Counted from the stretch's first letter, positions 5,358-25,807 are shown. The stretch is DNA of 34,835 nucleotides from Burkholderiales bacterium (GCA_028869095.1 JAGWTE010000005.1:1-34835), one strand, 5' to 3'. Notes: a model not told the origin generated them from the sequence alone. Numbers and translations: made by a program.

Positions 5358-5477
5358 CTTACTAACGAAGCGTAGGGAGAGCCCCTCTCCACTTCGGCTT
5401 TGAACCCTCCGTAAAACCGATAAGACCCCTCTGGCAAGACGGGCCTACACTGGGTTTTGCATTGATGGAGGTTGTTC

Positions 5478-8400
5478 ATGAATGCTCCGCTACCCGACCA
5501 TGTCCTGAAGGCACTGGCATCGCTGTCCTTGGATGACAAGTACACGCTGGAGCGGGGGCGTGCCTTCATGAGTGGGATTCAGGCGCTGGTGCGCTTGCCG
5601 ATCCTGCAGCAAACCCGTGACGCGATGTCAGGTTTGCACACTGCTGGGTTCATCAGTGGTTACCGTGGCTCACCCTTGGGGGGCTATGACCAGGCCTTGT
5701 GGAAGGCCCAATCCCACCTCAGCAAACACAACATCGTCTTTCAGCCCGGCGTCAACGAAGAGTTGGGTGCCACGGCCGTGTGGGGGACGCAGCAGTTGGA
5801 TCTGCACCCCGAGCGGCAACGCTTTGATGGAGTGTTTGGCCTTTGGTATGGCAAGGGGCCAGGCGTGGATCGGTGTTCGGACGTGTTCAAGCACGCCAAC
5901 ATGGCAGGCTCTGCCAAACACGGCGGGGTGATCGCGGTGGCGGGTGATGACCATGCGGCCAAGAGTTCATCCCTGGCGCATCAAAGCGATCACATTTTCA
6001 AAGCCTGTGGGCTGCCGGTTTTCTTTCCCAGTTCAGTCCAGGAGATTCTGGATCTGGGCTTGCACGCTTACGCCATGAGCCGTTTCTCGGGCCTGTGGGC
6101 AGGGATGAAGACCATTCAAGAGGTGGTGGAATCAGCCTCGACGGTGTCCGTCGATCCGGACCGGGTGCGCATCGTGGTGCCCACGGAGTTTGGGATGCCC
6201 AGTGGCGGCTTGAACATCCGCTGGCCGGATACGGCGCTGGAGCAAGAAGCCCGCTTGATGGATTACAAGTGGTATGCGGCGCTGGCTTACATCCGGGCCA
6301 ATAAGCTGAACCAGACCGTGCTGGACTCGCCCAATGCCAAGCTGGGCTTGATGGCCAGTGGCAAGGCCTACAACGATTTGATGCAAGCCCTGCATGACCT
6401 GGGGCTGGATGAAGAGGCTTGCCGGCGCATTGGTTTGCGTGTGCACAAGGTGGCTGTGGTGTGGCCTTTGGAAGCCAGCGCCACGCGTGAGTTCGCCACT
6501 GGGCTGCAAGAGATTTTGGTGATCGAAGAGAAACGCCAGATGATCGAGTACCAGCTCAAGGAAGAGCTGTACAACTGGCGTGAAGACGTTCGCCCCAATG
6601 TGTTGGGCAAGTTCTGCGAGTCAGAGGGGGACCGCACGGGTGGGGAGTGGTCGCAAGAGAACCCCGCCTCGCACTGGTTGCTGCGGGCTCAGGCTGATTT
6701 GAACCCCGCAATCATCGCCAAGGCGGTGGCCCAGCGTCTGGACAAGCTCGGTTTGCTGAAAGACCAGGAGCCGGCCTTGCGTGAGCGGGTTGCGCAACGT
6801 TTGCGGGTGATTGAGGCCAAAGAGCGGTCTTTGAAGGACTTGGCCAAGAGTGCGGAACGGGTGCCTTGGTTCTGCAGCGGTTGTCCTCACAACACGTCCA
6901 CCAAGGTGCCAGATGGCTCGCGTGCTATGGCGGGCATTGGTTGCCACTACATGGCGATGTGGATGGGCCGCCATACCGAGACCGTGTCGCAGATGGGCGG
7001 CGAGGGTGTCAACTGGGTGGGGCAGGCGCCGTTTACAAACGAGCAGCACGTCTTTGTCAATCTGGGTGATGGCACTTACTTCCACTCTGGGTTGCTGGCG
7101 ATCCGGCAAAGCATTGCGGCCAAGGTCAATGTGACCTACAAGGTCTTGTACAACGATGCGGTGGCGATGACCGGCGGGCAACCGGTGGACGGCACGCTGA
7201 GCGTGGCGGCGATGACGCGCGAGTTGGAGGCCGAAGGCGCCAAGCGCATCGTGGTGGTGACCGATGATGTGGACAAGTACACCGAGGTGTGTGACCTGGC
7301 ACCGGGGGTGGCGGTGCACCCGCGTGAGTCTTTGGATGTGATCCAGCGGCAGTTGCGTGAAACGGCTGGCTGCACGGTGCTGATTTACGAGCAGACCTGT
7401 GCGACGGAAATGCGCCGGCGTCGCAAACGCGGCACGGCGCCCAAGCTGGCCAAGCGAGTCGTCATCAATGAGATGGTGTGCGAAGGCTGCGGCGATTGCT
7501 CCGAGCAATCCAATTGCCTGAGTGTGGAGCCGGTGGAAACCGAGTTCGGGCGCAAGCGCCGTATCAACCAGAGTTCGTGCAACCAGGACTTCTCTTGCGT
7601 GAGGGGTTTTTGCCCCAGTTTTGTCACGGTGGAGGGGGGGCAGTTGCGGGCGCCCAAGGCGGGCGACGGCATCCCGACGCTGTCCAGCCTGCCTGTGTTG
7701 CCTGAGCCCGAACTGCCCAGCGCCAAATCGGCCTATGGCATTGTGGTTGCGGGCATTGGTGGCACCGGTGTGATCACCATTGGTCAACTATTGGGCATGG
7801 CGGCGCACTTGGAGGGCAAAGGCATCGTCACGCAGGAGGCTGCGGGGTTGGCCCAAAAGGGTGGGGCGACCTGGAGCCACGTGCAGATCGCCGATCGGCC
7901 GGAAGGGATCTTCACCACCCGTGTGGGCATGGCCGAGGCTGATCTGATCATGGGATGCGACCCGATCGTGGCCGCCCATTCCAGTACCTTGACCATGATG
8001 CGTGAGGGGCGCACCAAGGTGGCTTTGAACACGCATGAGACACCCACGGCAGATCTGGTCCACGAGCCGGGTTGGCAATTCCCCGCCCATCAATGTGACC
8101 ACGCCCTGGGCTTGGCCGTGGGCAAGGGCAATGTGGGGCAGATGGATGCGGTCGAACTGGCCACTCGTTTGCTGGGCGATGCGATCTACGCCAACCCCTT
8201 GATGCTGGGCTATGCCTGGCAGCGGGGGTGGGTGCCTTTGAGTCACTCTGCCTTGCATCGCGCCATGGAGCTCAACGCTGTGCAGGTGGAGCGCAATCTG
8301 GCGGCTTTTGAGTGGGGGCGCCGGGTGGCACACGATACGGCTGCTGTCATGCGCTTGGTGACGCCGGCCCAGCCCATCACCTTGATGCGGCAGCCCAAGG

Positions 8401-9020
8401 AGGCGGTGGAAGATTTGATCAGCCGCCGCCAGGGCTACCTCGTGGGCTACCAAGATGAGGCCTATGCACAGGACTATGTGACCCTGGTGCGGCGTGTGCA
8501 GGCCGCCGAGCGGGCATTGGGCAGCACCAAGCTGACCGAGGCGGTGGCGCGCAACTTGTTCAAGCTGATGGCTTACAAGGACGAGTACGAGGTGGCGCGT
8601 CTGTTGAGTGATGAGGCCTTCCGGCAGCAGATCAGTCAGCAGTTTGAGGGCGACTACAAGCTGGTGTTCAACCTGGCGCCACCGTGGATGGCGGGGCAGG
8701 ATGCCGTGGGGGCGCCGACCAAGCGGGCCTGGGGGCAAGCGTGGTTGCCGCTGCTGCGTTGGCTGCCTCGTCTAAAAGGTCTGCGTGGTAGCTGGATGGA
8801 CCCCTTTGGCTATTCGCAAGACCGCAAGCTGGATCGGGATCTGCTGCAAGAGTACCGGCAACGGGTGGAGCGCTTGTTGTCGGGGCTCAAGGCTCAAAAC
8901 CTGTCTCAGGCTGTGGACATTGCCAGTGTGCCGGACCTGATCAAGGGTTACGGCCACATCCGGATGGCCAACGCCAAGACGGCACGCCAGAAGTGGCAGC
9001 AGTTGCAGCCGAGCGCCTGA
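5478..9020 (+). CDS. Indolepyruvate ferredoxin oxidoreductase family protein (fused, 1180 aa)
   Basis: GYRGSPLGGYDQAL thiamine-enzyme region, 4Fe-4S cysteines (CEGCGDC..CNQDFSCVRGFCPSF), GIGGTGVITIGQLLGMAAHLEGK gamma-type domain. Confidence 0.92.
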   Translation: MNAPLPDHVLKALASLSLDDKYTLERGRAFMSGIQALVRLPILQQTRDAMSGLHTAGFISGYRGSPLGGYDQALWKAQSHLSKHNIVFQPGVNEELGATAVWGTQQLDLHPERQRFDGVFGLWYGKGPGVDRCSDVFKHANMAGSAKHGGVIAVAGDDHAAKSSSLAHQSDHIFKACGLPVFFPSSVQEILDLGLHAYAMSRFSGLWAGMKTIQEVVESASTVSVDPDRVRIVVPTEFGMPSGGLNIRWPDTALEQEARLMDYKWYAALAYIRANKLNQTVLDSPNAKLGLMASGKAYNDLMQALHDLGLDEEACRRIGLRVHKVAVVWPLEASATREFATGLQEILVIEEKRQMIEYQLKEELYNWREDVRPNVLGKFCESEGDRTGGEWSQENPASHWLLRAQADLNPAIIAKAVAQRLDKLGLLKDQEPALRERVAQRLRVIEAKERSLKDLAKSAERVPWFCSGCPHNTSTKVPDGSRAMAGIGCHYMAMWMGRHTETVSQMGGEGVNWVGQAPFTNEQHVFVNLGDGTYFHSGLLAIRQSIAAKVNVTYKVLYNDAVAMTGGQPVDGTLSVAAMTRELEAEGAKRIVVVTDDVDKYTEVCDLAPGVAVHPRESLDVIQRQLRETAGCTVLIYEQTCATEMRRRRKRGTAPKLAKRVVINEMVCEGCGDCSEQSNCLSVEPVETEFGRKRRINQSSCNQDFSCVRGFCPSFVTVEGGQLRAPKAGDGIPTLSSLPVLPEPELPSAKSAYGIVVAGIGGTGVITIGQLLGMAAHLEGKGIVTQEAAGLAQKGGATWSHVQIADRPEGIFTTRVGMAEADLIMGCDPIVAAHSSTLTMMREGRTKVALNTHETPTADLVHEPGWQFPAHQCDHALGLAVGKGNVGQMDAVELATRLLGDAIYANPLMLGYAWQRGWVPLSHSALHRAMELNAVQVERNLAAFEWGRRVAHDTAAVMRLVTPAQPITLMRQPKEAVEDLISRRQGYLVGYQDEAYAQDYVTLVRRVQAAERALGSTKLTEAVARNLFKLMAYKDEYEVARLLSDEAFRQQISQQFEGDYKLVFNLAPPWMAGQDAVGAPTKRAWGQAWLPLLRWLPRLKGLRGSWMDPFGYSQDRKLDRDLLQEYRQRVERLLSGLKAQNLSQAVDIASVPDLIKGYGHIRMANAKTARQKWQQLQPSA

Positions 9021-10080: not shown

Positions 10081-11000
10081 TGGAGGCAGTCCACTTGCGT
10101 GGCGATGGATGCGGGCAAGGGGTGTTGGCCGCGGATGACGTCCCGGATGTAGTCGGCCGTGGTCTGGGCGTCGATCTCGGTGGGCAGGTCTGGCAGGTCT
10201 ACCAGGACGCCTTCTTGCGGCGTGCGGCTCAGGTCTGCGCGTTTGTGGCCAGCCACAAACACATCAAAGCGAGGTTGGCGGCGGGCATCGGCCACCGGCT
10301 CGCCCTCGGTGCCGCGCATCAGCAGGGCGCGGGCATGGGTGTGTTCCAGATAGCTGGTCAGAGACACGGCGTATTCCGGGTGCGTGTGGTTGACCACGCG
10401 GATGGAGGGCACACCGGCTGAGGCAAAGGGATCCAGAATCTTGGCCACCGTGTGGCCGGGGTTGCGCAAGCCCACCACCCAGCGCACATCCAATAACTTG
10501 GCCAATGGCCGACACAAAGTCGCCGTGTCCATGAAGGCGGGTTGCCCTTGTTGCCAGGCCGCTTGCAAGCCCACGGCATCGGCCACGATGGGCCACTGCA
10601 GGGCTTCAAAAATCTGACCTGTGGTGACCCGGGTTTTGTCTTGTGGACCATGAACGAGCACGGACAGGCCGCGCTGGGACAAGGCCCAGGCCAGTAGCGC
10701 CGTCAAATTGGGCAGCTTGCGGGCCCCGTTGTACGAGGGCAAGACCACCACCGGGCGGTGCAGCGCCGTTGCGGCCTCGGCCAGCGAGATGCTGTGTTCG
10801 CTGGCGGCTTGCACAAAGCCTTCCAGTTCGGACACCTCTTCTCCCTTGATGCGCATGGCCAGGCAAAAGGCGCCGATTTCCAGATCCGTCACTTGACCGG
10901 AGAACACTTGGTTCAACAGGTCGTGGGCTTGCTCGACGGTCAGAGGGCGCGCGCCATCTTTGCCTCGGCCGATGGTTTTGAGGTACGCGGCGATGCTCAT
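10062..11000 (-). CDS. ybiB: YbiB/TrpD2-like DNA-binding protein (anthranilate phosphoribosyltransferase-like fold)
   Basis: TrpD-like N-terminus LTVEQAHDLLNQVFSGQVTDLEIGAFCLAMRIKGE; RNPGHTVAKILDPF; start overlaps nasA stop (ATGA). Confidence 0.88.
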   Translation of the reverse strand: MSIAAYLKTIGRGKDGARPLTVEQAHDLLNQVFSGQVTDLEIGAFCLAMRIKGEEVSELEGFVQAASEHSISLAEAATALHRPVVVLPSYNGARKLPNLTALLAWALSQRGLSVLVHGPQDKTRVTTGQIFEALQWPIVADAVGLQAAWQQGQPAFMDTATLCRPLAKLLDVRWVVGLRNPGHTVAKILDPFASAGVPSIRVVNHTHPEYAVSLTSYLEHTHARALLMRGTEGEPVADARRQPRFDVFVAGHKRADLSRTPQEGVLVDLPDLPTEIDAQTTADYIRDVIRGQHPLPASIATQVDCLHQALLA

Positions 11001-13831
11001 GGTGAGGTGGGCGTCGAGGCGTCCAGTGGGTGAAGCTTGATGATCTTGCGCAACTCAGGGATGCACGAGCCGCAATTGGTGCCGCATTTGAGTTGGCCCT
11101 GAAGCTGCGCCAGTCGGCTGTCGATGTCACCCTGGCATTGCTTGAGCGTGTCCACAATGTGGGGCTCGGTCACATTGAAGCAGGTGCAGACCTGGCGGCC
11201 TTTGCTCTCGACTTTGACGGGGGGCTCGGCGCCGGGAGAGAGCAGGGCGCGGCCATAGGCGTCGGCCAGCAACTCGTCTTGCAGCAGCGGTTTGATCCAG
11301 GCCTCGGCACTGATGTCGCCTGCCAGTACAAAGGCTTCCAGGCGCAGGCCATCTGGATGGCGATCCAGCTTCATCGAGCGTCGTTGGCCTTGCGTGCGGT
11401 CTTGGTAGTGCAGTATGTCTACGCCCTTCATGCCCAGGACGGACTCGATCTGGTCGTAGACCTCGTCGCTGCAGGCTTCCAGACCTGCTGCGCGGAACAG
11501 CACACCGACCTTGCCCTTTTCGTTCGGCTCGCGGCCGAACGGCACGCAGCTGGTGAAGGCAAAGGTTTGCATCAGCGGTTTGAGGGCCTCGCGGGCGGCC
11601 AGGGCTTCGTTTTCTGGCAGCCAAGCCACCGCCAGCAAGCGCCAAGGCAGATGGGGCATGGTGATGCGCACGGCCGCATGCTTGAGCTCGGGTTGCTTGG
11701 ACTTGGGGCAGAACGCCGGGTTGGTCAGTGTGTTCACGCCCGCCACAGGCGAGCCTTTGGCGTCGATGCCGCTGAGGTATTCCTGGCCCCAATGCATGGC
11801 CATGTAGGTTTGCATGGGCGCCATGGCCTCGCTGGCCTGGGCCGGGGCAATGAGTTGGCCTCGGCGAGATGCCACCTGAACCAGGTCACCGTCCTTCAGC
11901 CCCAGGCGAGCCATGTCTTGCGGGTTCAACTCCACACAGGGCTCGCTGACGTGGCCAAACAAGCGGCCCAAGGAGCCCGTGCGGCTCATGCCGTGCCATT
12001 GATCGCGCAGGCGGCCGGTGTTGAAGCTGAAGGGATAACGCTGATCCCGTGGTTCGGCCACAGGCTCATAGCGCATGGCACTGAAGTGGGCTCGGCCATC
12101 TTCGGTAGGGAAGCGGCCGTCTTCATACAGGCGGGCTTGGCCTTGTGCCGCGCCTTGGGGCATGGGCCATTGCTGAGGGCCTTGCTCTTGAAGGATGGCG
12201 TAGCTCAGGCCTGTGATATCGAGGTCGCGCCCACGGGTGGATTCACGGTGTTCGTTCCAGACCGATTCGGCATCGGTGTAGGGGAACAGTGTCTCCACGC
12301 CCGGACGGTAGTGCGACTTGCGTTGCGGCAGGCGTGCTTCCAGGCGGCGGCCCACATCGGCCAAGATGTCCCAGTCGTGTCGAGCCTGAGCTGTGGGCGC
12401 AATGGCCGGGCGCACGCGGCTGATGCGGCGTTCGCTGTTGGTGACGGTGCCGTCTTTTTCACCCCAGGTGGTCGCGGGCAGCAAAATATCGGCAAAGGCG
12501 CAGGTGGCCGTGGTGGCAAAGGCTTCTTGCACGATGACCAGTTCAGCCTTTTCCAAGGCCTTGCGCACCGTGGCTTGGTCGGGCATGGACTGGGCCGGGT
12601 TCGTGCAGGCAATCCACAGGGCTTTGATCTCGCCCCGAGCTGCGGCTTCAAACATCTCCACAGCCGTCATGCCAGCTTGTGCCGGCACTTCGTCGACGCC
12701 CCACAGGCTGGCCACTTCGGCGCGGTCTTGCGCGCTGGACAGGTCACGGTGGGCCGACAGCAGGTTGGCCATGCCACCCACTTCACGTCCGCCCATGGCA
12801 TTGGGCTGGCCGGTCAGCGAGAAGGGGCCCGCACCGGGGATGCCGATCTGGCCGGTAGCCAGATGCAGGTTGATCAAGGCGGCGTTCTTATCCGTGCCGC
12901 TGCTGCTTTGGTTCAAGCCTTGGCAGTACAAGGACAGCGTGGGTGTCTGCCCACCAAACCAACGCGCGGCCTGGATCAGATCGTCTTTGGCGATGCCGCA
13001 GACGGAAGCCACCACATCGGGATTGAAGTCCTGCACGATGGCCTGCAAAGCCTCAAAGCCGTTGGTGTGCTTTTGCACATAGGCCATGTCGATCAGGCGT
13101 TCGGCCAGCATCACATGCAGCATGCCGTGGAACAGGGCCACATCGGTGCCGGGCAGGATCTGCAGGAACAGATCGGCCATCTCGGCAGTTTCCGTGCGGC
13201 GAGGGTCGGCCACGATCAGCTTCATGGCCGGGTTGGCGCGACGGGCGTCGTCAATGCGGCGGAACAGGATCGGGTGCGCGTAGGCGGTGTTGGCGCCCAC
13301 GATGAACAGGGTTTGGGCGTGCTGGAAGTCGTCGTAGCAAGCCGGGGGCGCGTCCGAGCCCAGCGTGGCTTTGTAGCCGGCCACGGCGCTGCTCATGCAC
13401 AAGCGCGAGTTGGTGTCCAGGTTGTTGGTGCCGATCAGGCCTTTGACCAGCTTGTTCAGGACGTAGTAGTCCTCGGTCAGCATTTGGCCGGAGCCGTAAA
13501 AGCCCACGGCTTGTGGGCCGTGGCGTTGGATGATGCTGGCGATGCGATCGGCGGCGTCGTCCAGGGCCGCATCCCAACTGATGGCGGTGGGGGCTTCGCC
13601 GCGTTGTGCTCGGCGCATGGGTTGAGCCAGCCGCGTTTGTTGCCGAATGGATTCAGTCGCGGTCAGGTGCAGTGTGCTGCCTTTGGTGCACAGACGGCCA
13701 AAGTTGGCGGGATGGGTTGGATCACCCACCACGTTGATGATGCGCCCTTGGCGGGATTCAATCAGCACGCCACAACCTGTCCCACAGTAGGGGCAAGTTG
13801 CGCGCGTTTGTGTGGTGGTCACTTCACTCAT
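10997..13831 (-). CDS. nasA: Assimilatory nitrate reductase catalytic subunit with C-terminal BFD-like [2Fe-2S] domain
   Basis: CPYCGTGCGV 4Fe-4S motif, Mo-Cys region NSRLCMSSAVAGYK, C-terminal CTCFNVTE...CGTNCGSCIPELRKII. Confidence 0.93.
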   Translation of the reverse strand: MSEVTTTQTRATCPYCGTGCGVLIESRQGRIINVVGDPTHPANFGRLCTKGSTLHLTATESIRQQTRLAQPMRRAQRGEAPTAISWDAALDDAADRIASIIQRHGPQAVGFYGSGQMLTEDYYVLNKLVKGLIGTNNLDTNSRLCMSSAVAGYKATLGSDAPPACYDDFQHAQTLFIVGANTAYAHPILFRRIDDARRANPAMKLIVADPRRTETAEMADLFLQILPGTDVALFHGMLHVMLAERLIDMAYVQKHTNGFEALQAIVQDFNPDVVASVCGIAKDDLIQAARWFGGQTPTLSLYCQGLNQSSSGTDKNAALINLHLATGQIGIPGAGPFSLTGQPNAMGGREVGGMANLLSAHRDLSSAQDRAEVASLWGVDEVPAQAGMTAVEMFEAAARGEIKALWIACTNPAQSMPDQATVRKALEKAELVIVQEAFATTATCAFADILLPATTWGEKDGTVTNSERRISRVRPAIAPTAQARHDWDILADVGRRLEARLPQRKSHYRPGVETLFPYTDAESVWNEHRESTRGRDLDITGLSYAILQEQGPQQWPMPQGAAQGQARLYEDGRFPTEDGRAHFSAMRYEPVAEPRDQRYPFSFNTGRLRDQWHGMSRTGSLGRLFGHVSEPCVELNPQDMARLGLKDGDLVQVASRRGQLIAPAQASEAMAPMQTYMAMHWGQEYLSGIDAKGSPVAGVNTLTNPAFCPKSKQPELKHAAVRITMPHLPWRLLAVAWLPENEALAAREALKPLMQTFAFTSCVPFGREPNEKGKVGVLFRAAGLEACSDEVYDQIESVLGMKGVDILHYQDRTQGQRRSMKLDRHPDGLRLEAFVLAGDISAEAWIKPLLQDELLADAYGRALLSPGAEPPVKVESKGRQVCTCFNVTEPHIVDTLKQCQGDIDSRLAQLQGQLKCGTNCGSCIPELRKIIKLHPLDASTPTSP

Positions 13832-14312: not shown

Positions 14313-16304
14313 TCAATGACGCAGAGGGGCCACGCCCACTTGAGGCATGTTGGCCAGACCGATGTCGCGGGCATGTTCCTCAAAGCCCTTGTTCTTCCAG
14401 AAGAAGGCACCGGGCATGGTGGTGGGAATGACCAGGACATAGAACAAGGCACGGCTGACCAGGCTGGTGAACACGGCCGTGGCGGCCACTACACCCCAGC
14501 CCAACCAGGCAGGCAGGCCGGTCTGGCCCAAGGCCAACATGCTGGTCAACAGACCGGCAGCCAGCAGGGCATTGCTGCCCAGCAAGGCATTGCGCAGGAT
14601 GAAGGTCTTGCCGAAGGTGGTGCTTTGGATGTAGTAAGAAGCGCCGCCTTCATGTTCGGCACGGCCCATGTCGCGGGCATGGCCGGTGTGGCCCACGCCT
14701 TCGATCACCAAGCCCAGCGCCACCAGGGCAGCGAACAACTCGGCGGTGCCTTGCACGGCGTGGCCCGTCAGTGCCAATGTGCTCAAGACCACGGCGCCGG
14801 CCAGCAAGCCACCCAGGGTCAGCGCGGTGCCGATGAAGGCGGTGCTGACTTGCCAGTGGTTCCAGAACGGACGGGCCTTGATGCGGTAGCACTTGTTCAT
14901 GTAGTAGATGCCAACCACGCTGGACGCCACCGCCAGCACACCGCAGGCATTGGCCAGGCGATGCGCCAGATCAGGGGCGATCAGCTGGGTGACATCCAGG
15001 CCCAACAGGCTTTGCGCCAAAGACTGGAACAGCGTGTTCGCTGGCAGGCTGAACACGATGTGCAAGCCCAGCATGCCGATGAACAAGGCGATGCCCAGCC
15101 CTTCACGCGACACGGGCGAATGACGCAGGTTGTTGAAACCGCGATAGAAGCGATGAGGCTTACCCAAGTGCAAGGTGGACATGAACAGACCGAAGGCCAC
15201 CAACACGAAGTTCAAGATGGCCAAGGGTGCGTAGACCACCGATTGGGCAAAGGCCACAAAGCCATCCAACCCAGCCAGCGCGCCCAGGAACTGCATGGCA
15301 AAGGCGCCTGCGGTCATTTGAGCGGCCAGGGTGAACATCACCAAGGGGTTCTCACGCGAGCTCAGGCGGGCCATGTTCCAGTGTTTGGCCTTGCCTTTTT
15401 TCTGGTCGATGGCGGGCTTGTACTGGCCGTTCTCGTCCTTGTGGTACTTCACCGGCATCGAGTCGGTGCGCTTCATCTCGTCCGGCAACTGCTTGATCTG
15501 CTGAAAGCGGATGTTGGGGTGCGTGATCTCGGGGCTGGGGAAACCGGGGATCTCGACGCGGGCTTGCTCGCGCTTCTCAGGCACGTTTTCGATCACGCCA
15601 AAGTCCAGCGCATTGCCCACGCAGGCTGACACGCAAGCGGGCTTGAGGCCGACTTCCAGGCGGTCCACGCACATATTGCACTTGGAGACACGGCCTTTGA
15701 CCGGGTCCAGCTGCGGTGCGTTGTAAGGGCACACCCAGGTGCAGTAACCGCAACCAAAGCAGGTTTCAGGGTCTTGCAACACGGCGCCGTATTCCACGTG
15801 CTTGGTGTAGGCGCGGGTGGGGCAGCCCTTCAAGCAAACGGGGTCATCGCAATGGTTACAGGCCATCGAGATGTTCATGCGCTTGTAGTCGGGGTAGCTG
15901 CCGCCTTCCACATAGCCCACGGAGCGGAAGGCCAGGTGGGGCGGGTTCTCGTTCTTTTCGCTGCAAGCCGCTTCACAGGCGTGGCAGCCAATGCAGTTGT
16001 CGGCCGTGAAGAAAAAGCCGTGCTGTTTGTTGCGGTTGGGGTTGCTGCCAACGGCCGGGTTTTCGTTGATGAACATCGAGCGACCGACGGGCAGCTTGCC
16101 CTCGGTGTGCGCAATCAGGTCGATCTTCTGGCCGTAGCGGTTGGTGTCCTTGTTGTTCTTGTCGCGTAGGAAAGCGTAGTACTGCTCTTCGGTGCGGATT
16201 TCCCAAATCTTGCGTTGTTTGGGCTTGGCGTTGGCCTGGCTATGTGCCTGGGCGTTGGCGATGTCAGCTTGAGCGGTCTCGCCGACTTTTGGATTTTCTG
16301 TCAT
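14313..16304 (-). CDS. Fused DmsB-like four-cluster ferredoxin and DmsC-like membrane anchor (663 aa)
   Basis: Four Cys clusters CIGCHACEAAC, CNHCDDPVCLKGCP, CFGCGYCTWVCP, CNMCVDRLEVGLKPACVSAC, followed by about 330 aa of polytopic DmsC-like sequence. Confidence 0.9.
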   Translation of the reverse strand: MTENPKVGETAQADIANAQAHSQANAKPKQRKIWEIRTEEQYYAFLRDKNNKDTNRYGQKIDLIAHTEGKLPVGRSMFINENPAVGSNPNRNKQHGFFFTADNCIGCHACEAACSEKNENPPHLAFRSVGYVEGGSYPDYKRMNISMACNHCDDPVCLKGCPTRAYTKHVEYGAVLQDPETCFGCGYCTWVCPYNAPQLDPVKGRVSKCNMCVDRLEVGLKPACVSACVGNALDFGVIENVPEKREQARVEIPGFPSPEITHPNIRFQQIKQLPDEMKRTDSMPVKYHKDENGQYKPAIDQKKGKAKHWNMARLSSRENPLVMFTLAAQMTAGAFAMQFLGALAGLDGFVAFAQSVVYAPLAILNFVLVAFGLFMSTLHLGKPHRFYRGFNNLRHSPVSREGLGIALFIGMLGLHIVFSLPANTLFQSLAQSLLGLDVTQLIAPDLAHRLANACGVLAVASSVVGIYYMNKCYRIKARPFWNHWQVSTAFIGTALTLGGLLAGAVVLSTLALTGHAVQGTAELFAALVALGLVIEGVGHTGHARDMGRAEHEGGASYYIQSTTFGKTFILRNALLGSNALLAAGLLTSMLALGQTGLPAWLGWGVVAATAVFTSLVSRALFYVLVIPTTMPGAFFWKNKGFEEHARDIGLANMPQVGVAPLRH

Positions 16305-16319
16305 GGCAGTCCCTCAGGT

Positions 16320-18566
16320 TTAGAACGCGCGGCGCTCAAGGTTCAAACGAGCGGCTTCTTTTTGGTCGATCTTCTCGACGCGAACGGCGTTTTGCTTGAA
16401 GGCAGGTTGCCGAGAGTGAGGGTCCAGCAGACCCAGGGTCAGTCGGTTGACGCAATCGTGGAAGTGGAAGGGGATGAACAACATGTCCCGGCCCACGCGC
16501 TGCGTCAGCTGCACCATGACCACGGCATCGCCACGTCGGCTGACCAGGCGCACATAGCTTTGATGCTCGATGCCCAACTCATCGGCGGCATCGGGGTTCA
16601 TCTCCATGTACGGCGTGGGACTGAACTTGTTGCAGTTGCCGATCTTGCCGGTGCGGGTGCGGGTGTGGAAATGCTCGACCACACGGCCGGAGTTCAACCA
16701 GAAGGGGTATTCGCTGTCCGGGCATTCGTTGTTGTTCACGAAGCGGATCGGCAGCAGGTTGGCGCGGCCATCCGGTGTCTGGTATTGGCCGTCCGTGTAC
16801 AAGCGAGGGTTGCCCAGATAAGGCTTGCGCGCGAGCATGTCCAGGCCGTTGGATTCACCAATCGCCTGTGCATCTTGTTCAGCTTGCGCTTCGCTGTAGG
16901 GCCACTGGATGCCGCGAGCGGCTTCGATGCGGTCGTAGCTCATGCCCGAGATGTCCAGCGTGCGGCCTTCGCCCTTGGACAGTTCACGCATTTCATTGAA
17001 CGCGCCTTCCGCCGTGGCCGGGAAGTGGATCTTGTTGCGGTCTTCAAACCGCTTGGACATCTCGTTGAAGATCCAGAAGTCGGGCTTGCTGTCGGCATAG
17101 GCGGGCAACACATTGCGCGTCAGGTTCACGCGGCGCTCGGTGTTGGTGTGGCAGCCTTCCTTTTCGGCCCACACAGCAGCAGGGAAGTACACGTGCGAGT
17201 ACTTGTTGGTCTCGACGTCTTCATACACGTCTTGCACCACCAAGAATTCGAGGTTCTCCATCGCCTTGCGGATGCGAGGCTGGTTGGGCATGGAGGTCAT
17301 GGGGTTGGTGGCCACCAGCCACAGGCCCTTGATTTCACCCGTTTCAATGGCAGGGAAGATATCGGTTTGCGACAAGCCGCGTGCGGGCGGGAAGAAGCTC
17401 TCGTCAATGCCCCAGAACTCGGCAATGTGCTTGCGGTCTTTTTCCTTCTCCAGCAGACGATAGCCAGGCAGGCCCGAGCAAGACGACCATTCGCGCGTGC
17501 CCATGGCATTGCACTGGCCGGTGATCGACAAGCTAGTGCCACCGGGCTTGCCGATGTTGCCGGTGATCAGGTTCAGGTTGTTGATGTTGACGACGCCGTC
17601 CGAGCCGTGTGTGGACTGGTTGATGCCCATCGTCCAGATGCTCATGGCCGCAGGGGCCTTGGCATAGATGCGCGCCACGGTGCGAATGCGGTCTTCGTCG
17701 ATGCCGCAAATGTGCTGCGCCGTCTTGGGATCGTAGTCAGCCAGCAGCGTGCGCAGATCTTCGATGCCCTTGGTGTGCTTGGCGATGTAGTCGTCGTCCT
17801 GCAGACCTTCCTTGAAGATCACATGCATCATGGCATTGATCAACACGGTGTCGGTGCCGGGCGTGATGGGCAAGTGAATGTCGGCAAACTGGGCCAGCAT
17901 GGTCACGCGAGGGTCCACCACGATCAGCGGGAACTTGCGCTTTTCCAGTGCTTCCTTGAGGCGCCAGTAGATGATGGGGTGCTGCTCAGGCAGGTTCGAG
18001 CCAAAAGCCATCAGGCAGTGCGTGTGCTCGAAATCGCCATAGCAGCCCGGAGGGCCATCTGAGCCGAACGAGCGCTTGTAGCCCGACACGGCAGATGCCA
18101 TGCACAGCGTCGTGTTGCCGTCGTAGTTGTTGGTGCCGATCTGGCCGCGCACCAGCTTGCCCAGGGTGTAGAACTCTTCGGTCAAGAGCTGACCGGTCGA
18201 GACCACGGCAAACGAATCACGGCCATATTTGGCCTGGATCTCTTTGATCTTGGCCGCCGTGACGTCCATGGCCTTGTCCCAGCTGGTGGGCTGAAAGGGC
18301 AGGTGGGCCTTGTCACGCATCAACGGCACTTTGCCGCGACCGGGCGAGTCAAAGAGTTCGTGTTCCAGCAAGCCTTTGATGCACAGCTTGCCACGGTTGA
18401 CGTCCGAGCCCGCGTGGCCCCGGCTGGTGACGATCCTGCCGCTGTCGTTCAAGCCGATCTCAATGGAGCAGCCGGTTGAGCAGTAGTTGCAGGTGGTGTA
18501 TTTCCACTCCTTCACATCCTTGACGGGAATGGCGATGGGTTTTCTGTTTTTGCGACCGAAGATCAT
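16320..18566 (-). CDS. Molybdopterin oxidoreductase, Nas/Nap-type nitrate reductase catalytic subunit (748 aa, no export signal)
   Basis: CNYCSTGCSIEI FeS motif; TTLCMASAVSGYKRSFGSDGPP parallels the NasA Mo-Cys region; bis-MGD C-terminal domain. Confidence 0.9.
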   Translation of the reverse strand: MIFGRKNRKPIAIPVKDVKEWKYTTCNYCSTGCSIEIGLNDSGRIVTSRGHAGSDVNRGKLCIKGLLEHELFDSPGRGKVPLMRDKAHLPFQPTSWDKAMDVTAAKIKEIQAKYGRDSFAVVSTGQLLTEEFYTLGKLVRGQIGTNNYDGNTTLCMASAVSGYKRSFGSDGPPGCYGDFEHTHCLMAFGSNLPEQHPIIYWRLKEALEKRKFPLIVVDPRVTMLAQFADIHLPITPGTDTVLINAMMHVIFKEGLQDDDYIAKHTKGIEDLRTLLADYDPKTAQHICGIDEDRIRTVARIYAKAPAAMSIWTMGINQSTHGSDGVVNINNLNLITGNIGKPGGTSLSITGQCNAMGTREWSSCSGLPGYRLLEKEKDRKHIAEFWGIDESFFPPARGLSQTDIFPAIETGEIKGLWLVATNPMTSMPNQPRIRKAMENLEFLVVQDVYEDVETNKYSHVYFPAAVWAEKEGCHTNTERRVNLTRNVLPAYADSKPDFWIFNEMSKRFEDRNKIHFPATAEGAFNEMRELSKGEGRTLDISGMSYDRIEAARGIQWPYSEAQAEQDAQAIGESNGLDMLARKPYLGNPRLYTDGQYQTPDGRANLLPIRFVNNNECPDSEYPFWLNSGRVVEHFHTRTRTGKIGNCNKFSPTPYMEMNPDAADELGIEHQSYVRLVSRRGDAVVMVQLTQRVGRDMLFIPFHFHDCVNRLTLGLLDPHSRQPAFKQNAVRVEKIDQKEAARLNLERRAF

Positions 18567-18593: not shown

Positions 18594-18950
18594 TTAAGCC
18601 GATTTCTCAACAGGATCCAGCGCGAGCTGGGTGAGCTCTGCCACATTGAGATGAACGATGCCGTTTTCCACCTTGACGCTGAACTTGGGTGTGCTGCCTT
18701 CGTCAGGGGCGTGAGCACACCCGTTTTCCAAGCCGATGGTCCAGTTGTGCAGTGGGCAAGCCACGCTGTGACCAAACACCAAGCCTTGAGACAGGGGGCC
18801 GCCTTTGTGCGGGCAGCGATCGAGCAGCGCGAAGACTTGGTCGTCTTCAGCTCGAAACACTGCGACCTGGCAGCCGTGATCTCGTTGGACACGACGTGCG
18901 CCAAGTTTGGGTATGTCTTCCACCTGGCAAATCGGTTTCCATTCGGACAT
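18594..18950 (-). CDS. nirD: NirD-like Rieske [2Fe-2S] protein
   Basis: CPHKGGPLSQGLVFGHSVACPLHNW Rieske ligands; NirD length; beside nirB and nitrate reductase. Confidence 0.88.
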   Translation of the reverse strand: MSEWKPICQVEDIPKLGARRVQRDHGCQVAVFRAEDDQVFALLDRCPHKGGPLSQGLVFGHSVACPLHNWTIGLENGCAHAPDEGSTPKFSVKVENGIVHLNVAELTQLALDPVEKSA

Positions 18951-19028: not shown

Positions 19029-19835
19029 TCAGGTCAGCTGGCTGTAGAGACTGGTCACGTGATCCATCAGCGTCAGCAGCCGTTCACTGGATGCAAACAC
19101 CTCGACGGCGTGTTTCTTCGTGTTGGTGGCCTCCGTCAGGCGCTGCAAGGCGTTGTCAAAAAAGACCCATTGCTGCGAAGCAATCTCGATTTCTTGACGG
19201 ATCTGATTGGTGGCCTCGGGCGCATCTGCCAACACGGTCAAGGCCCGTTGAAATTCATCACGGGCTTTGTTTAACTCGTTGACTTGATCGGGAACCAGCG
19301 CGCCCCAGCGATTGCTCAAGTAGTACTTGGCCATGCGCTGCGACAGCATCCGCTGGCGTCCGGCCAGGTTCACCAACTTGCCAACCGAGTGGCCTGAGAA
19401 CTTCTCCAACTGGACCGTTCCTTGGTTGGCCAAGGCCAGGACCATGTTGTCCAGCTTGATCAGCGAAGGCGTGGTGTTGACGGCGGGCGATGCCCCCACC
19501 AACACGCCCTTGTATTCGCTCCAAATGGATTCGAGCGCCGAATAGGTCGACTTGATTTCGGCGTTAGGGGCGAACGCTTTGAGTTCAACGAACTGTCGAT
19601 CAAACAAGGCCATCGAATCAAACAAGATCTTTTCAGCCTTGCTGGATTCAACGTCCTGGCCGACCGCCAGCCACGCTTTGGCCATGCGCTGGGACAGCAT
19701 GCGCTGGCGCCCCGCCTTGTTGATGGCCTCGTTGATTCCATTGATTTGAGCCACAGCAGGGAACGCTGCCATGGCCACGCCTGCGGCGACGCCGCATTTC
19801 AAGATATGTCTACGGGAGTACAACACTGGGATCAC
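19029..19835 (-). CDS. Exported protein with two PilJ/NarX-like N-terminal-type (P-box) segments
   Basis: SRRHILK twin-arginine-like signal and AFPAVAQ; AGRQRMLSQRMAK occurs twice. Confidence 0.85.
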   Translation of the reverse strand: MIPVLYSRRHILKCGVAAGVAMAAFPAVAQINGINEAINKAGRQRMLSQRMAKAWLAVGQDVESSKAEKILFDSMALFDRQFVELKAFAPNAEIKSTYSALESIWSEYKGVLVGASPAVNTTPSLIKLDNMVLALANQGTVQLEKFSGHSVGKLVNLAGRQRMLSQRMAKYYLSNRWGALVPDQVNELNKARDEFQRALTVLADAPEATNQIRQEIEIASQQWVFFDNALQRLTEATNTKKHAVEVFASSERLLTLMDHVTSLYSQLT

Positions 19836-19849
19836 CTGTCAATTTCCGG

Positions 19850-22282
19850 TCAGATTGATAAGGGTTCAAACTGACGGGTATCGACCTTGGCGCGATCGAA
19901 GTCGAACCAGGGATCCGGTTCCCCGTCGAGAGAGAACTGGAGCTTGGCCCAAAGGGCTTGGCGATACTCAGGGTTTTCCAGTATCTTGGCTTTGACGTAA
20001 TCCAAACCAACGCGGCTCACATAGTGGCAAGTGCGCTCCAAATACCAACCTTCTTCGCGGTATAGCTGCAAGAACGCGCCGGAGTACTCCAACACCTCTT
20101 GCGGTGTCTTGACCTTCACAAAGAAGTGCGCCACCTCGGTTTTGATGCCGCCGTTGCCAGCCACATACAACTCCCAGCCAGAGTCGACCCCGATCACGCC
20201 CACGTCCTTGATGCCGGCTTCAGCGCAGTTGCGGGGGCAGCCCGACACGGCCAGCTTGACCTTGTGGGGGGCATACATGCGCCACAACGCCTTTTCCAAG
20301 TCCTTGCCCATTTGGGTGGAGTCTTGCGTGCCAAAACGACACCACTCGCTGCCCACGCAGGTCTTCACGGTGCGCAGGCCCTTGGCGTAGGCGTGGCCGC
20401 AAGGCATGCCAATGTCTTTCCAGACATTGACCAGGTCTTCTTTCTTTACGCCCAGCAAGTCGATGCGCTGGCCGCCCGTGACCTTGACCGTTGGGATCTT
20501 GTACTTGTCCACGGCATCAGCAATGCGGCGCAGCTCGTCTGCTGTGGTCTCGCCGCCCCACATGCGGGGCACGACCGAGTACGTGCCATCCTTTTGGATG
20601 TTGGCGTGGCTGCGCTCGTTGATCAGGCGGCTTTGTGGGTCGTCTTGCGCCTCTTTGGGCCAAGTGCTGATCAGGTAGTAGTTGATGGCCGGGCGGCAGC
20701 TGGCACAACCATTGGCCGTGCGCCAGCCCAAGGTCTTGTAGACGCCATCGATGGTGAGGATCTTTTGATCGCGGATGGCCTCGCGCACATCCTGGTGGCT
20801 GTGGTCGGTGCAGCCGCACATCGCCTTCTTCTTGGGCGTGGCCGAATAGTCGCCGCCAGCGGTGAACATGATCAGTTGTTCAACCAAGCCGGTGCAGGAT
20901 CCGCAAGACGCGCTGGCCTTGGTGTGCTTGCGCACTTCGTCCAGGGTGAACAGGCCCTTGTCCTTGATCGCCTTGCAGATGGCACCCTTGGTGACGCCGT
21001 TGCAGCCGCAAACCTCGTCAGTGTCGGCCATCGCGGCGGCCTTGTTGTGGCCTTCGTGGCCGGTGTCGCCAATGTTGGACTCGCCAAACATCAGGCGATC
21101 ACGCTTGTCGCGGATGCAATTGCCTTCGCGGATCAGCTTGAAGTAGTAGCTGCCATCCACCGTGTCGCCATACAGGCAGGCGCCCACCAGCTTGTTGTCC
21201 TTGATGACCAGCTTTTTGTAGACGCCGCCAAAGGGGTCGGACAAAACCATCTCTTCGGTGCCGTCGCCACCCATGAAGTCGCCCGCCGAGAACAGATCAA
21301 TGCCGGTGACCTTCAGCTTGGTCGAGGTTTGCGAGCCGGTGTAGCGGCCGATGCCGAACATGGCCAAGTGGTTCGCGCACACCTTGCCTTGCTCAAACAA
21401 GGGGGCGACCAGGCCGTAGGCAATGCCACGGTGCGCTGCGCATTCGCCGACCGAATACACGCGAGGGTCGGTCACGGTTTGCATGGTGTCGGTCACCACG
21501 ATGCCACGGTTGCAATGCAGGCCAATCTTTTCAGCCAGTTCGGTGTTGGGGCGGATACCGGCAGCCATGACGACCAGGTCGGCCGGCACTTCGGTGCCGT
21601 CTTTGAACTTGACCGCCTTGACGCGATCGTCTTCGCTGCCCACCAACTCTTGCGTTTGCGCGCCGATGCGGAACTGCAAACCACGCTCTTCCAGCGAACG
21701 TTGCAGCATCTTGCCCGCCACGTCGTCCAGCTGGCGCTCCATCAGCCAGGGGGCAATGTGCACCACCGTCACGCTCATGCCGCGCAGCATCAAACCGTTG
21801 GCCGCTTCCAGGCCCAGCAAGCCGCCGCCGATGACCACGGCGTGCTTGTGCGTCTTGGCCGTGTCGATCATCGTGTTGGTGTCGGCGATGTCGCGGTATG
21901 CGATCACGCCCTTCAAGTCCTTGCCGGGCACGGGCAAGATGAAGGGGTTCGACCCTGTGGCGATCAGCAGGCGGTCGTATTCGGCTTCCGTGCCATCCTC
22001 GGCGATGACCACCCGACGGGTACGGTCCACGTGCGTCACCTTCTTGTGGGTGTGCAGCGTGATGCCGTGCTCAGCGTACCAATCCAGAGGGTTGAGAATG
22101 ATCTCGTCGATCGTTTGTTCGCCCGCCAGCACGGGTGACAGCAAAATGCGGTTGTAGTTGGGATGAGGCTCAGCGCCGAATACGGTGATGTCGTACAAGT
22201 CGGGGGCGACCTTCAACAGCTCTTCCAGGGCGCGAACCCCAGCCATACCGTTGCCGATCAAAACAAGCTTCATCTTCTTCAT
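19850..22282 (-). CDS. nirB: NAD(P)H nitrite reductase large subunit
   Basis: KLVLIGNGMAGVRALEELL FAD domain, BFD-like Cys motifs, siroheme/4Fe-4S motifs TCVGSEWCRFG and SGCPRNCAEA. Confidence 0.97.
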   Translation of the reverse strand: MKKMKLVLIGNGMAGVRALEELLKVAPDLYDITVFGAEPHPNYNRILLSPVLAGEQTIDEIILNPLDWYAEHGITLHTHKKVTHVDRTRRVVIAEDGTEAEYDRLLIATGSNPFILPVPGKDLKGVIAYRDIADTNTMIDTAKTHKHAVVIGGGLLGLEAANGLMLRGMSVTVVHIAPWLMERQLDDVAGKMLQRSLEERGLQFRIGAQTQELVGSEDDRVKAVKFKDGTEVPADLVVMAAGIRPNTELAEKIGLHCNRGIVVTDTMQTVTDPRVYSVGECAAHRGIAYGLVAPLFEQGKVCANHLAMFGIGRYTGSQTSTKLKVTGIDLFSAGDFMGGDGTEEMVLSDPFGGVYKKLVIKDNKLVGACLYGDTVDGSYYFKLIREGNCIRDKRDRLMFGESNIGDTGHEGHNKAAAMADTDEVCGCNGVTKGAICKAIKDKGLFTLDEVRKHTKASASCGSCTGLVEQLIMFTAGGDYSATPKKKAMCGCTDHSHQDVREAIRDQKILTIDGVYKTLGWRTANGCASCRPAINYYLISTWPKEAQDDPQSRLINERSHANIQKDGTYSVVPRMWGGETTADELRRIADAVDKYKIPTVKVTGGQRIDLLGVKKEDLVNVWKDIGMPCGHAYAKGLRTVKTCVGSEWCRFGTQDSTQMGKDLEKALWRMYAPHKVKLAVSGCPRNCAEAGIKDVGVIGVDSGWELYVAGNGGIKTEVAHFFVKVKTPQEVLEYSGAFLQLYREEGWYLERTCHYVSRVGLDYVKAKILENPEYRQALWAKLQFSLDGEPDPWFDFDRAKVDTRQFEPLSI

Positions 22283-22328: not shown

Positions 22329-22344
22329 AGCAAAAACAAGGCCA
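22329..22344 (-). promoter_or_regulatory. Sigma54-like -24/-12 promoter of nirB
   Basis: Minus strand TGGCCTTGTTTTTGCT: GG-N10-GC spacing, TGGC and TTGC intact. Confidence 0.6.
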
Positions 22345-22426
22345 GCTTGTTTGTAGTGCGGGATTACTCGGATTGCACCGTGCGTGGGCTTGAAACTTGC
22401 GCGCGATAAGGCCTGGCCCGATTGGG

Positions 22427-22443
22427 TGCACCAATGTGGTGAC
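22427..22443. promoter_or_regulatory. NtrC-like binding site
   Basis: TGCACCA-ATG-TGGTGAC; core GCACCA-N3-TGGTGA matches 11/12 of GCACCA-N3-TGGTGC. Confidence 0.6.
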
Positions 22444-22478: not shown

Positions 22479-24215
22479 ATGAGTTTTGACTTGGACATCG
22501 GGTACGCCAGCCAGAAAGGCCCGCGCACCGATTTGGAAGATTTCGCAGCCGTCGGCCAACCCTCGCCCCATGAAGAGGCATGGGGTGTGGTGGCGGCCAT
22601 TGCCGATGGCGTGTCTGCAGGCGGCTTGGGCCGCGAGGCCGCGCAAACGACCGTGATGGCTTTGCTGCAGGACTACTACGCCACGCCCGCCACCTGGGAC
22701 ACGACGGTGGCCTTGGACCGCGTCATCGCTGCGCAAAACGCCTGGTTGGCAGACCACAACCGCCGACGCGCGGGCCACAAGCAAGACGGTGCGGCTCAAG
22801 CAGCCATGACCACCTTGACCGCCGTCGTGTTGCGCGGTCACAGCTACACCCTGGCGCATGTGGGCGACAGCCGAGCCTACTTGATCCGTGGGGGCGACTG
22901 CGTGCAGCTCACCCAAGATCACACCCTTGGCACCCTTGAATTTCAAAATGGCTTGACTCGCGCCGTGGGCTTGGACGATGGCCTTCGCGTGGACTACGAA
23001 GAGGGCGAGCTGCAGATCGGCGACACCTTTGTGTTGACCACCGATGGCGTGCACGGTGTGCTCAAGCGTCAAGCCGTGCTGGATCTGGCGCGAGATGGGT
23101 CTGCACAGGACGCCAGCGAAGCCTTGGTGGCCAAAGCCTTGGCCGCCAATGGCCGCGACAACGCTACTGCCTTGGTGATTCGGGTCAAAGGCTTGGCCGC
23201 AGCGCGGCTGGAGGATGCCCACCGCCGGGGGCGCCAACTGCCGGTTCCGGCCAAGCTCGTGGCGGGGGATACCTTGGACGGTTTGACGGTCGATGCCTGC
23301 GTGTTTTCAAACGGCGTGCACCGTGTCTACAAGGTTCGCGATACAGCGCGTGGGCTGACCTATGCGCTCAAAACCTTGCACGAAGCCCGAGCCAGTGACC
23401 CCGAAGAGCGCGCCATGCTGGCGCACGAGGCCTGGTTGGGCGCGCGGGTCACGGAGCGCAAAGACACCGGGCTGGTGCGCGTGTATGAACCGGTTGACCC
23501 CAGTTGCTTCTACACGCTGTTTGAATGGGTCGATGGCGCCATGCTCAGCGACATGTTGGCGCGCAAGCAGGCCTTCAGTGTGACCGACGTGGTGGCAGGC
23601 ATTTCAGACGTGGTGCGGGCCTTGGGTCGCTTGCACCAATTTGGCGTCATCCACCGTGATGTCAAACCGGAGAACGTGCTCAAAGGCGTCGATGGCCAAT
23701 GGCGTTTGATGGATCTGGGGGTGGCACTGTCGGGTAAAGAGCCGGAGTCCTTGAAAGTGCTCCACGCCGGAACGCCCAGCTACATGAACCCCGAACAATG
23801 GGATGACGACCCTGCGGTCTCTCGGGCTGATTCACAAAGCGATCTGTTCGCTTTGGGGGTGACGCTGTATCAATGGTTGACCGGGCGCCTGCCTTACGGT
23901 GAGGTGGAGCCTTACCAGACAGGGCGATTCAGGCGTGTCAACCCGATCGCTCCCTCGCGCTTGCGCCCGGATGTGCCGATCTGGTTGGATCACATCGTGC
24001 TCAAGGCCATTGCCAAAGACAAAAAGCAGCGCTTTGAAACGGCGGAAGAAATGCTGCTGGCGCTGGACCGTGGTGCCTCCCGGCCTTTGTCTGCTTTGGC
24101 CGCGACCCCTTTGGTGGGACGCGATCCCGCTGATTTGTGGAAGGTGGCGTTGGCTGTGTCCGTGCTGCTCAATTTGTTGCTGGTCTACTGGTTGATGTTC
24201 CTGCCTAAAGGGTGA
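22479..24215 (+). CDS. Bifunctional PP2C phosphatase / Ser-Thr protein kinase with C-terminal TM
   Basis: PP2C motifs (AIADGVSAGGLG, VGDSRAYLI, GRDNATALVIRV) then kinase motifs (YALKTL, HRDVKPENV, MDLGVA, GTPSYMNPEQW); terminal hydrophobic helix. Confidence 0.95.
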   Translation: MSFDLDIGYASQKGPRTDLEDFAAVGQPSPHEEAWGVVAAIADGVSAGGLGREAAQTTVMALLQDYYATPATWDTTVALDRVIAAQNAWLADHNRRRAGHKQDGAAQAAMTTLTAVVLRGHSYTLAHVGDSRAYLIRGGDCVQLTQDHTLGTLEFQNGLTRAVGLDDGLRVDYEEGELQIGDTFVLTTDGVHGVLKRQAVLDLARDGSAQDASEALVAKALAANGRDNATALVIRVKGLAAARLEDAHRRGRQLPVPAKLVAGDTLDGLTVDACVFSNGVHRVYKVRDTARGLTYALKTLHEARASDPEERAMLAHEAWLGARVTERKDTGLVRVYEPVDPSCFYTLFEWVDGAMLSDMLARKQAFSVTDVVAGISDVVRALGRLHQFGVIHRDVKPENVLKGVDGQWRLMDLGVALSGKEPESLKVLHAGTPSYMNPEQWDDDPAVSRADSQSDLFALGVTLYQWLTGRLPYGEVEPYQTGRFRRVNPIAPSRLRPDVPIWLDHIVLKAIAKDKKQRFETAEEMLLALDRGASRPLSALAATPLVGRDPADLWKVALAVSVLLNLLLVYWLMFLPKG

Positions 24216-24336: not shown

Positions 24337-25593
24337 TCAGGCCTTCACGGTGTTGTCGCGGTAAGCGCCCGAGGTGCTACCGGTGGTGCGTGCGCGGCCA
24401 CCCTTTTCAGCCCAGGTGCGGGTCCAGCGGATTTGCATGACGCGCATCATCACCAGAGACAGCACAGCCAGCACGGCAATCGCGACGAAGCCACCGAGGT
24501 AGCTGCCCGTGTGCGTCTTGGCCAGGCCCATGGCGTTGGGGACCAAACCGCCGCCCAGGGCGCCAATTTCACCAATCATCGAACCGGCCACAGCAGTGGT
24601 CAGAGGCCAGCGCAGGGGCACCAGTTGGAACAGGGCGCCATTGCCCGTACCCAGGGCCGCAAAGCACAGCATCAGCAGCAGGGTCGTCAAGATCAACGAA
24701 TCACCAGCCATGCCAGCCAGGACCAGGGAGATCGCCACGGTGATGATCACCACGGTCAAGGTGTTCACGCCGCCCCAACGGTCGGAGATCCAGCCGCCAA
24801 AGATGCGCAGCGCGGCAGCCATGAAAGCAGCCAGCATGGTCAACTGACCGGCTTGCACCTTGCTCACATGGAATTGCTCGTAGTAGTAGCTGGGCAGGAA
24901 GGAGGTCAAACCAATGAAACCGCCAAAGGTCACGCCGTAGATGATGCTGAAGGCCCAGCCATCTTTTTCAAACAAACAGGCAATGTGCTCGCGGAACGAA
25001 GCGTGGGCGTCGCGGTCAGGTGGTTCTTTGGCGAAGAAAATCATCACCAGCATGGGCAGGCAGATCGCGATGGCGGCAAAACCATAGACCGTTTGCCAGC
25101 CGTAGGCTTGGGCCAGGGGAGGGGCCACCAGCACCGACACAGCCGTGCCGACGTTACCCGCGCCCACCAAACCCATGGCCAGCCCCTTGTACTTGGGTGG
25201 GAACCAGCCAGAACCCAGCGACAGCGCCACGCCGAAACTGGCGCCCGCGATACCCAGCAGTGCACCCATGGCCAAGAGGTTGTCAAAGGTGTGCACGTAA
25301 AAGTAGCCATAAATCATGGCGACGGCGATCATGCTCATCTCGACCAGGGTCGCTGCTTTGCGGCCCACATACTGCGCCAGGATGCCCAGCGGAAAGCGCA
25401 TGAATGCGCCCGCAAAAATCGGGATCGACAGCATCAGCCCCTTCTGCGCAGCCGTCAGCTTCAGGTCTTCGGTGATGAAGGGGGCCATGGCGCCATTCAT
25501 CACCCAGATGCAGCACGAAAACGCAAAGTACAGAAACGATGCAAACAAGGTTGGGGCGTGCCCCGCCTTCAGGAAGGATTTGAAATCTGACAT
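24337..25593 (-). CDS. NarK/NasA-type MFS nitrate/nitrite transporter
   Basis: MFS topology; nitrate-signature-like segments [21 protein letters not shown] and [20 protein letters not shown]. Confidence 0.92.
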
Positions 25594-25653
25594 GAGTAAC
25601 CTCAGCGTTGTTGGCTCAGCCTTCGTTGGCCAAGTCCTTGTGCAGGGTCCTAA

Positions 25654-25669
25654 AGCGAGATCCGTGCCA
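25654..25669 (-). promoter_or_regulatory. Sigma54-like promoter of the nitrate transporter gene
   Basis: Minus strand TGGCACGGATCTCGCT: perfect TGGCACG, N4, TCGC; GG-N10-GC spacing. Confidence 0.6.
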
Positions 25670-25678
25670 GCGCAGTGC

Positions 25679-25693
25679 GCTTCACTTTGGTGC
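25679..25693. promoter_or_regulatory. Possible NtrC-like half-conserved palindrome
   Basis: GCTTCA-CTT-TGGTGC, 10/12 of GCACCA-N3-TGGTGC. Confidence 0.4.
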
Positions 25694-25807
25694 GCGATCC
25701 GTGAGCAGAAAATCAAGCGCCCTGCGCTGGCTCAAAAACCATCCGCGCTGGTGGTGTCAGAAATGCCCCGCGATCGGGGACAATCCGCTCAGTTCACAGG
25801 AGATTGC

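Follow-up and report, generated by a model that had tools for sequence, protein, structure and literature searches.

A predicted inward-facing quinol:nitrate oxidoreductase with a fused DmsB-DmsC-like subunit in proteobacterial nitrate assimilation loci

Introduction

The minus strand of a 34,835-nucleotide stretch of DNA from a Burkholderiales bacterium (GCA_028869095.1 JAGWTE010000005.1:1-34835; this whole stretch is the window) encodes a catalytic subunit for a molybdenum-bis(pyranopterin guanine dinucleotide) cofactor (Mo-bisPGD), here called the Mo subunit, and directly after it a protein in which a DmsB-like ferredoxin and a DmsC-like membrane domain are fused (DmsBC; Table 1). Judged from sequence and predicted structure, the two proteins probably form a two-chain, membrane-bound quinol:nitrate oxidoreductase for nitrate assimilation with an inward-facing active site, a reading to which a probability of roughly 77% is given. 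We infer that the chains associate, that quinol is the donor, that nitrate is the substrate and that there is no net proton translocation. A quinol-linked nitrate reductase with an inward-facing active site had been suggested in a preliminary description of this DNA, and it now finds in silico support in the gene pairing, the active-site and quinol-site residues, the loop charges and the operon.

A broader proposal, also favoured by the evidence and held with less assurance, is that the pair represents a third Cys-ligated nitrate reductase lineage beside NasA and NapA. This lineage would draw directly on the respiratory quinol pool by way of a fused DmsBC of inverted orientation, would occur in about one sixth of sampled gammaproteobacterial genomes (in the sense of GTDB) and, in many of these, would be the only nitrate reductase serving assimilation.

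Conservation and integrity of the gene pair

The Mo gene and dmsBC are separated by 15 bp. The Mo subunit contains the Molybdop_Fe4S4, Molybdopterin and Molydop_binding domains of the DMSO-reductase family (Pfam). It had been described as a 748-residue protein lacking a twin-arginine leader, and both points hold: the open reading frame (ORF) coordinates are exact, and the [4Fe-4S] motif already begins at residue 26, so that there is no space before it for a twin-arginine translocation (Tat) leader of the kind present in Escherichia coli NapA and DmsA. The union of ferredoxin and DmsC-like domains in one chain is equally borne out, as a single 663-residue frame holds both Pfam domains (Fer4_11, residues 145-237; DmsC, PF04976, residues 318-622, E=3.5e-12) and the 16 ferredoxin cysteines.

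A survey of the fused family and its neighbours, suggested in the preliminary description, was made in 184 evenly drawn gammaproteobacterial genomes (class genomes). The fusion family is found in 31 of these, or roughly one in six, and the Mo family in 32, namely the same genomes plus one in which the Mo match starts at contig base 6. In 30 of the 31 carriers the fusion directly follows the Mo gene, the spacing being between -56 and +104 bp for 29 of the 30 adjacent pairs, and in 30/31 nirB lies upstream of the Mo gene on the same strand within 3.3 kb. At the fusion match, the frame stays open for 585 residues or more in all 31. A phylum-wide draw added two carriers outside the class. Furthermore, scanning named genomes yielded 80 loci in beta- and gammaproteobacteria, isolates included, with the Mo gene beside the fusion in nearly all; the genera include Polaromonas, Rhodoferax, Aquabacterium, Simiduia, Shewanella, Colwellia, Zhongshania and Methylophaga. 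An orthologous pair in another family of the order shares 59% (fusion) and 68% (Mo) identity with that of the window, its fusion being one open frame. No closer relative turned up in plasmid and PDB searches.

Some unusual arrangements were considered and rejected. A 1410-residue ORF at locus L087 is not a Mo-DmsB-DmsC triple fusion, as the Mo match lies in another frame of high-GC DNA. Long frames in genomes G041 and G038 are not DmsBC fusions with unrelated Mo partners; in G038 the B and C proteins are separate.

Active site and family placement of the Mo subunit

Residues C155, M156, Q351 and R358 of the Mo subunit align with C140, M141, Q346 and R354 of Desulfovibrio desulfuricans NapA and are invariant in 31 homologues. 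Formate dehydrogenases carry selenocysteine or cysteine followed by histidine at the Mo site. By sequence, the Mo site is thus of the nitrate reductase (Nap/Nas) type and not of the formate dehydrogenase type. In addition, NapA is the top-scoring nitrate reductase in a PDB sequence search with the Mo subunit.

The Mo subunit falls outside the named nitrate reductase families. It scores 389 bits with the NapA model (cut-off 931), besides lacking the leader, and in NCBIfam 496 bits against a cut-off of 1100 for NasC and 445 against 1000 for haloarchaeal NasA; the neighbouring 944-residue NasA likewise misses the NasC and haloarchaeal NasA cut-offs. In a tree built without Bacillus subtilis-type NasC or cyanobacterial NarB sequences, the Mo subunit clade has support of 100/100 and lies outside the NasA clade, which is itself grouped at 99/98 without the Mo subunit. 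Joining the Mo clade with NasA (p-AU, from the approximately unbiased test, 0.153) or with NapA (p-AU 0.056) is not rejected. On these sequence data the Mo subunit and its homologues form a lineage apart from the sampled NasA and NapA sequences. In functional terms it resembles the Nas type, as a predicted cytoplasmic Mo-bisPGD subunit with a Cys ligand and no Tat leader.

Quinol site and orientation of the fusion protein

The 46 fusion homologues retain every one of the 16 ferredoxin cysteines, enough for four [4Fe-4S] clusters. The predicted structure of the membrane domain has 8 helices with a predicted local distance difference test (pLDDT) score mostly above 85. In a fold search the domain matches ActC and PsrC best (probability 1.00, best E 2.6e-3). 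This fold, with the quinol-site residues in helices 1-4, places the domain in the NrfD/PsrC/DmsC superfamily. The quinol site of DmsC is listed as S62, H65, S82 and E87, and replacement of H65 abolishes quinol oxidation (PMC8076601). The equivalent residues of the fusion are S376, H379, S396 and E401, of which the last three are invariant and S376 is nearly so among the 46 homologues.

The orientation of the domain was predicted from its loop charges. The mean Lys+Arg count is 10.7 for the ferredoxin-side loops versus 0.8 for those on the opposite side, and the bias is toward the ferredoxin side in 46/46 homologues. The control E. coli DmsC, in which the ferredoxin side is periplasmic, has 3 versus 5, while two SoeC-like proteins, called SoeC by inference from their operons, have 12 versus 0 and 11 versus 3. 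The positive ferredoxin-side loops therefore predict that the ferredoxin and the Mo subunit are cytoplasmic and that quinol is oxidised near the same face. An inward-facing complex of the DmsABC type is already known, SoeABC being the precedent (PMC8076601).

Links to nitrate assimilation

NirB is encoded in 31/31 fusion carriers versus 63/153 of the other class genomes (p = 6e-11), and in 37/37 carrier genomes reached through the loci. Neighbours in the carrier loci include NirBD, NarK-type transporters and uroporphyrinogen methyltransferase (CobA; sirohaem). Of 14 loci, 11 have a sigma54-type -24/-12 site ahead of nirB, whereas shuffling predicts 0.05. Because chance alone would give one such site across the whole window, the argument rests on the recurrent position and not on presence. 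Together, the linkage to nirBD (nirB with Mo in 30/31) and the sigma54-type sites, a predicted expression signal, agree with a Nas-type role. NtrC-like inverted half-sites also occur about 70-100 bp upstream of the window's sigma54-type site; such matches are no more numerous in the whole window than expected by chance.

NapA is present in 19 of the 37 carrier genomes and NarG in 14. In 12/37 neither was found and the Mo subunit is the sole strong Nas-type match; no other Nas, Nap or Nar enzyme was found there, and nitrite for NirB would most obviously come from the Mo-dmsBC enzyme in these carriers. Isolates with no second nitrate reductase detected include Simiduia aestuariiviva, Zhongshania antarctica and Litorivivens lipolytica.

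Proposed mechanism and alternative readings

In the proposed enzyme, quinol would be oxidised at the DmsC-like domain near the cytoplasmic face. Its two electrons would run along the four DmsB-like [4Fe-4S] clusters, then over the [4Fe-4S] cluster of the Mo subunit, and arrive at the Mo-bisPGD centre with its Cys ligand. There, on the cytoplasmic side, nitrate would be reduced to nitrite, which NirBD would convert to ammonium in the cytoplasm. The nitrate/nitrite redox potential lies far above that of ubiquinone, so electrons are expected to run from quinol to nitrate. As protons would be released and consumed on the same side, no net charge movement is expected, unless a subunit pumps ions. 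The hybrid of assimilatory and respiratory logic suggested in the preliminary description therefore stands in part: operon and promoter point to assimilation, and the respiratory part is narrowed to the source of electrons, energy conservation not being expected.

Some observations weigh against the proposed quinol:nitrate oxidoreductase. The topology call is based on the positive-inside rule, and the ferredoxin domain has low confidence in the single-chain model. A conventional NasA is encoded in the same cluster, so the Mo-dmsBC enzyme is not the sole nitrate reductase of the window's genome. In addition, the best NCBIfam match of the Mo subunit, below its cut-off, is TIGR01591 (formate dehydrogenase), as it is for the neighbouring NasA. 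Together with the shared architecture of SoeABC, this match would suit a formate:quinone or sulfite:quinone oxidoreductase in place of a nitrate reductase, which is very improbable given the NapA-like Cys-Met at the Mo site, the retained NapA Arg and Gln, and the linkage to nirBD, narK and cobA. The presence of a second NasA, suggesting a distinct role, and of NarG and NapA in the carriers counted above would instead suit the same complex acting mainly in respiratory electron disposal or redox balancing under low oxygen, possibly with the ion translocation proposed for NrfD-like subunits in some complexes (PMC8076601). This reading is unlikely, however, in view of the near-obligate NirB link, the nirB-nirD-Mo-dmsBC operon with its sigma54-type promoters, the 12 NirB-bearing carriers without NarG or NapA, and the location of donor and acceptor on the same side.

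The characterised NasA, NasC and NarB enzymes are soluble, and there is a slim chance that the Mo subunit is likewise a soluble Nas enzyme fed by ferredoxin or NAD(P)H and the DmsBC fusion an unrelated neighbour. No member of the Fdh/Nas/Aio/Nap clade is said to pair with four-cluster or membrane-anchor subunits (PMC7331816), which would favour such an enzyme, but the direct adjacency in 30/31 carriers, the close spacing and the presence of both families in the same genomes argue for a complex, and the Mo-dmsBC family appears to be an exception to that generalisation. An assembly or frameshift artefact behind the fusion or gene order is next to negligible. The window is a single contig from a metagenome-assembled genome of 72% completeness, and no fusion-level match was found among the 36 other species of its genus searched, the distribution being patchy. 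The window's NasA nests within the window's own genus in the tree, however, so the contig belongs to that genus, and the fusion is intact in an independent genome at 59% identity, in all 31 class carriers and, with the pair, in about 80 independent assemblies including isolates.

Neighbouring genes

The minus-strand gene order is nirB, a PilJ-domain protein gene, nirD, Mo, dmsBC, a gene for a protein of about 125 residues, NasA-BFD and ybiB. The third gene after Mo and dmsBC begins 1 nt past the fusion stop. Its product has a confident, beta-rich predicted structure (pLDDT 91) and invariant Trp residues, with WW.W.P near the C-terminus; it has no Pfam, NCBIfam or PDB match in sequence searches, nor a PDB match with the model. 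In roughly half of the close loci the gene comes directly after dmsBC, and in one (L077) it is on the opposite strand. As only 2/184 class genomes have it, a role as core subunit is ruled out and the gene is accessory. No NarJ/DmsD-type chaperone was seen near the locus, and for this reason the third protein is possibly an assembly factor.

The PilJ-domain protein also lies between nirB and nirD in several Comamonadaceae and Aquabacterium loci. It holds two copies of a AGRQRMLSQRMAK motif, which we take to resemble the nitrate-binding P-box of NarX. The protein is a likely nitrate/nitrite-binding sensor, perhaps free-standing and periplasmic. Proteins resembling the PP2C-kinase fusion divergent from nirB occur near narK or nirBD in carriers L024, L050 and L102. 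NasA-BFD also adjoins the Mo-dmsBC pair in Rhodoferax loci L029 and L036, and the window's genome has another NirB, which is of a different type and scores higher (G000:C285:5408-7792).

Table 1. Features of the window, with positions counted from its first nucleotide
Feature	Position	Strand	Basis or remarks
Mo-bisPGD catalytic subunit, 748 aa, predicted cytoplasmic	16320..18566	-	N-terminal [4Fe-4S], Cys155-Met156 Mo-ligand motif, Gln351, Arg358
Fused DmsB-DmsC-like protein, 663 aa	14313..16304	-	ORF and Pfam domains
Four-cluster ferredoxin domain of the fusion, residues ~95-245	15570..16022	-	16 invariant Cys
DmsC/PsrC/ActC-like membrane domain of the fusion, 8 helices, residues ~318-632	14409..15353	-	S376, H379, S396, E401
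Third gene, small beta-rich protein, ~125 aa	13934..14311	-	Accessory
NirD, Rieske-type small subunit of nitrite reductase	18594..18950	-	Domain/family search
PilJ-domain protein with Tat-like leader, between nirB and nirD	19029..19835	-	Domain search
NirB, NAD(P)H nitrite reductase large subunit	19850..22282	-	935.9 bits, cut-off 578
NasA with C-terminal BFD [2Fe-2S] domain, 944 aa, second, separate nitrate reductase	10997..13831	-	Domains and tree
Sigma54-type -24/-12 site TGGCCTTGTTTTTGC, ~60 nt upstream of nirB	22330..22344	-	Pattern search
NtrC-like inverted half-sites	22414..22443		2-3 mismatches
Fused PP2C phosphatase and Ser/Thr kinase	22479..24215	+	Divergent from nirB
NarK-family nitrate/nitrite transporter-like protein of the major facilitator superfamily	24337..25716	-	Score below family cut-off
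1182-aa protein, indolepyruvate ferredoxin oxidoreductase type	5472..9020	+	POR and DUF6537 domains
tRNA gene at contig end	4..76	+	

Comparison with known systems

The textbook donors for nitrate assimilation are NAD(P)H, ferredoxin and flavodoxin, and no description of a nitrate reductase of the Mo-dmsBC kind was found in the open-licence literature. If the proposal is correct, a quinol-fed enzyme would spend electrons of the respiratory chain, with complex I conserving energy beforehand, and nitrogen assimilation would become linked to membrane redox state. Bacteria whose genomes are scored as having no known nitrate reductase may still assimilate nitrate, and the DmsC/NrfD module would gain a second inward-facing use beside SoeABC.

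The complex combines features of several known systems. With NasA, NasC and NarB it shares a predicted cytoplasmic Mo subunit, the Cys ligand, the N-terminal [4Fe-4S] cluster, nirBD, narK and cobA as neighbours and a nitrogen-type promoter; those enzymes, in contrast, lack a membrane anchor and draw on ferredoxin or a flavoprotein as donor, and the Mo subunit forms a separate clade. The Desulfovibrio-type monomeric NapA shares the four active-site residues, but is Tat-exported and fed by NapC/NapGH-type donors, and its family model scores the Mo subunit far below the cut-off.

On the membrane side, the ferredoxin is 39% identical to E. coli DmsB, and the membrane domain keeps the equivalents of DmsC S62, H65, R71, S82 and E87. 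Membership of the DmsABC (dimethyl sulfoxide reductase) family is nevertheless contradicted by Cys155 in place of the Ser ligand, the missing Tat leader, the fused B and C proteins and the opposite loop charge, with its predicted inverted topology. The sulfite dehydrogenase SoeABC, a CISM complex that faces the cytoplasm, is similar in its cytoplasmic Mo subunit, four-cluster B protein and 8-helix C protein, in the His65/Glu87 quinol-site residues near the N-side (negative side) of the membrane and in the pattern of loop charges, and the four-cluster and anchor domains of the fusion are likewise predicted to face inward. However, SoeB and SoeC are separate proteins, SoeA is not of the Nas/Nap type to which the Mo subunit belongs, and SoeABC reduces the quinone pool and has no link to nirBD. 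By analogy, the Mo-dmsBC complex may work like a SoeABC-type complex run in reverse, as a reductase.

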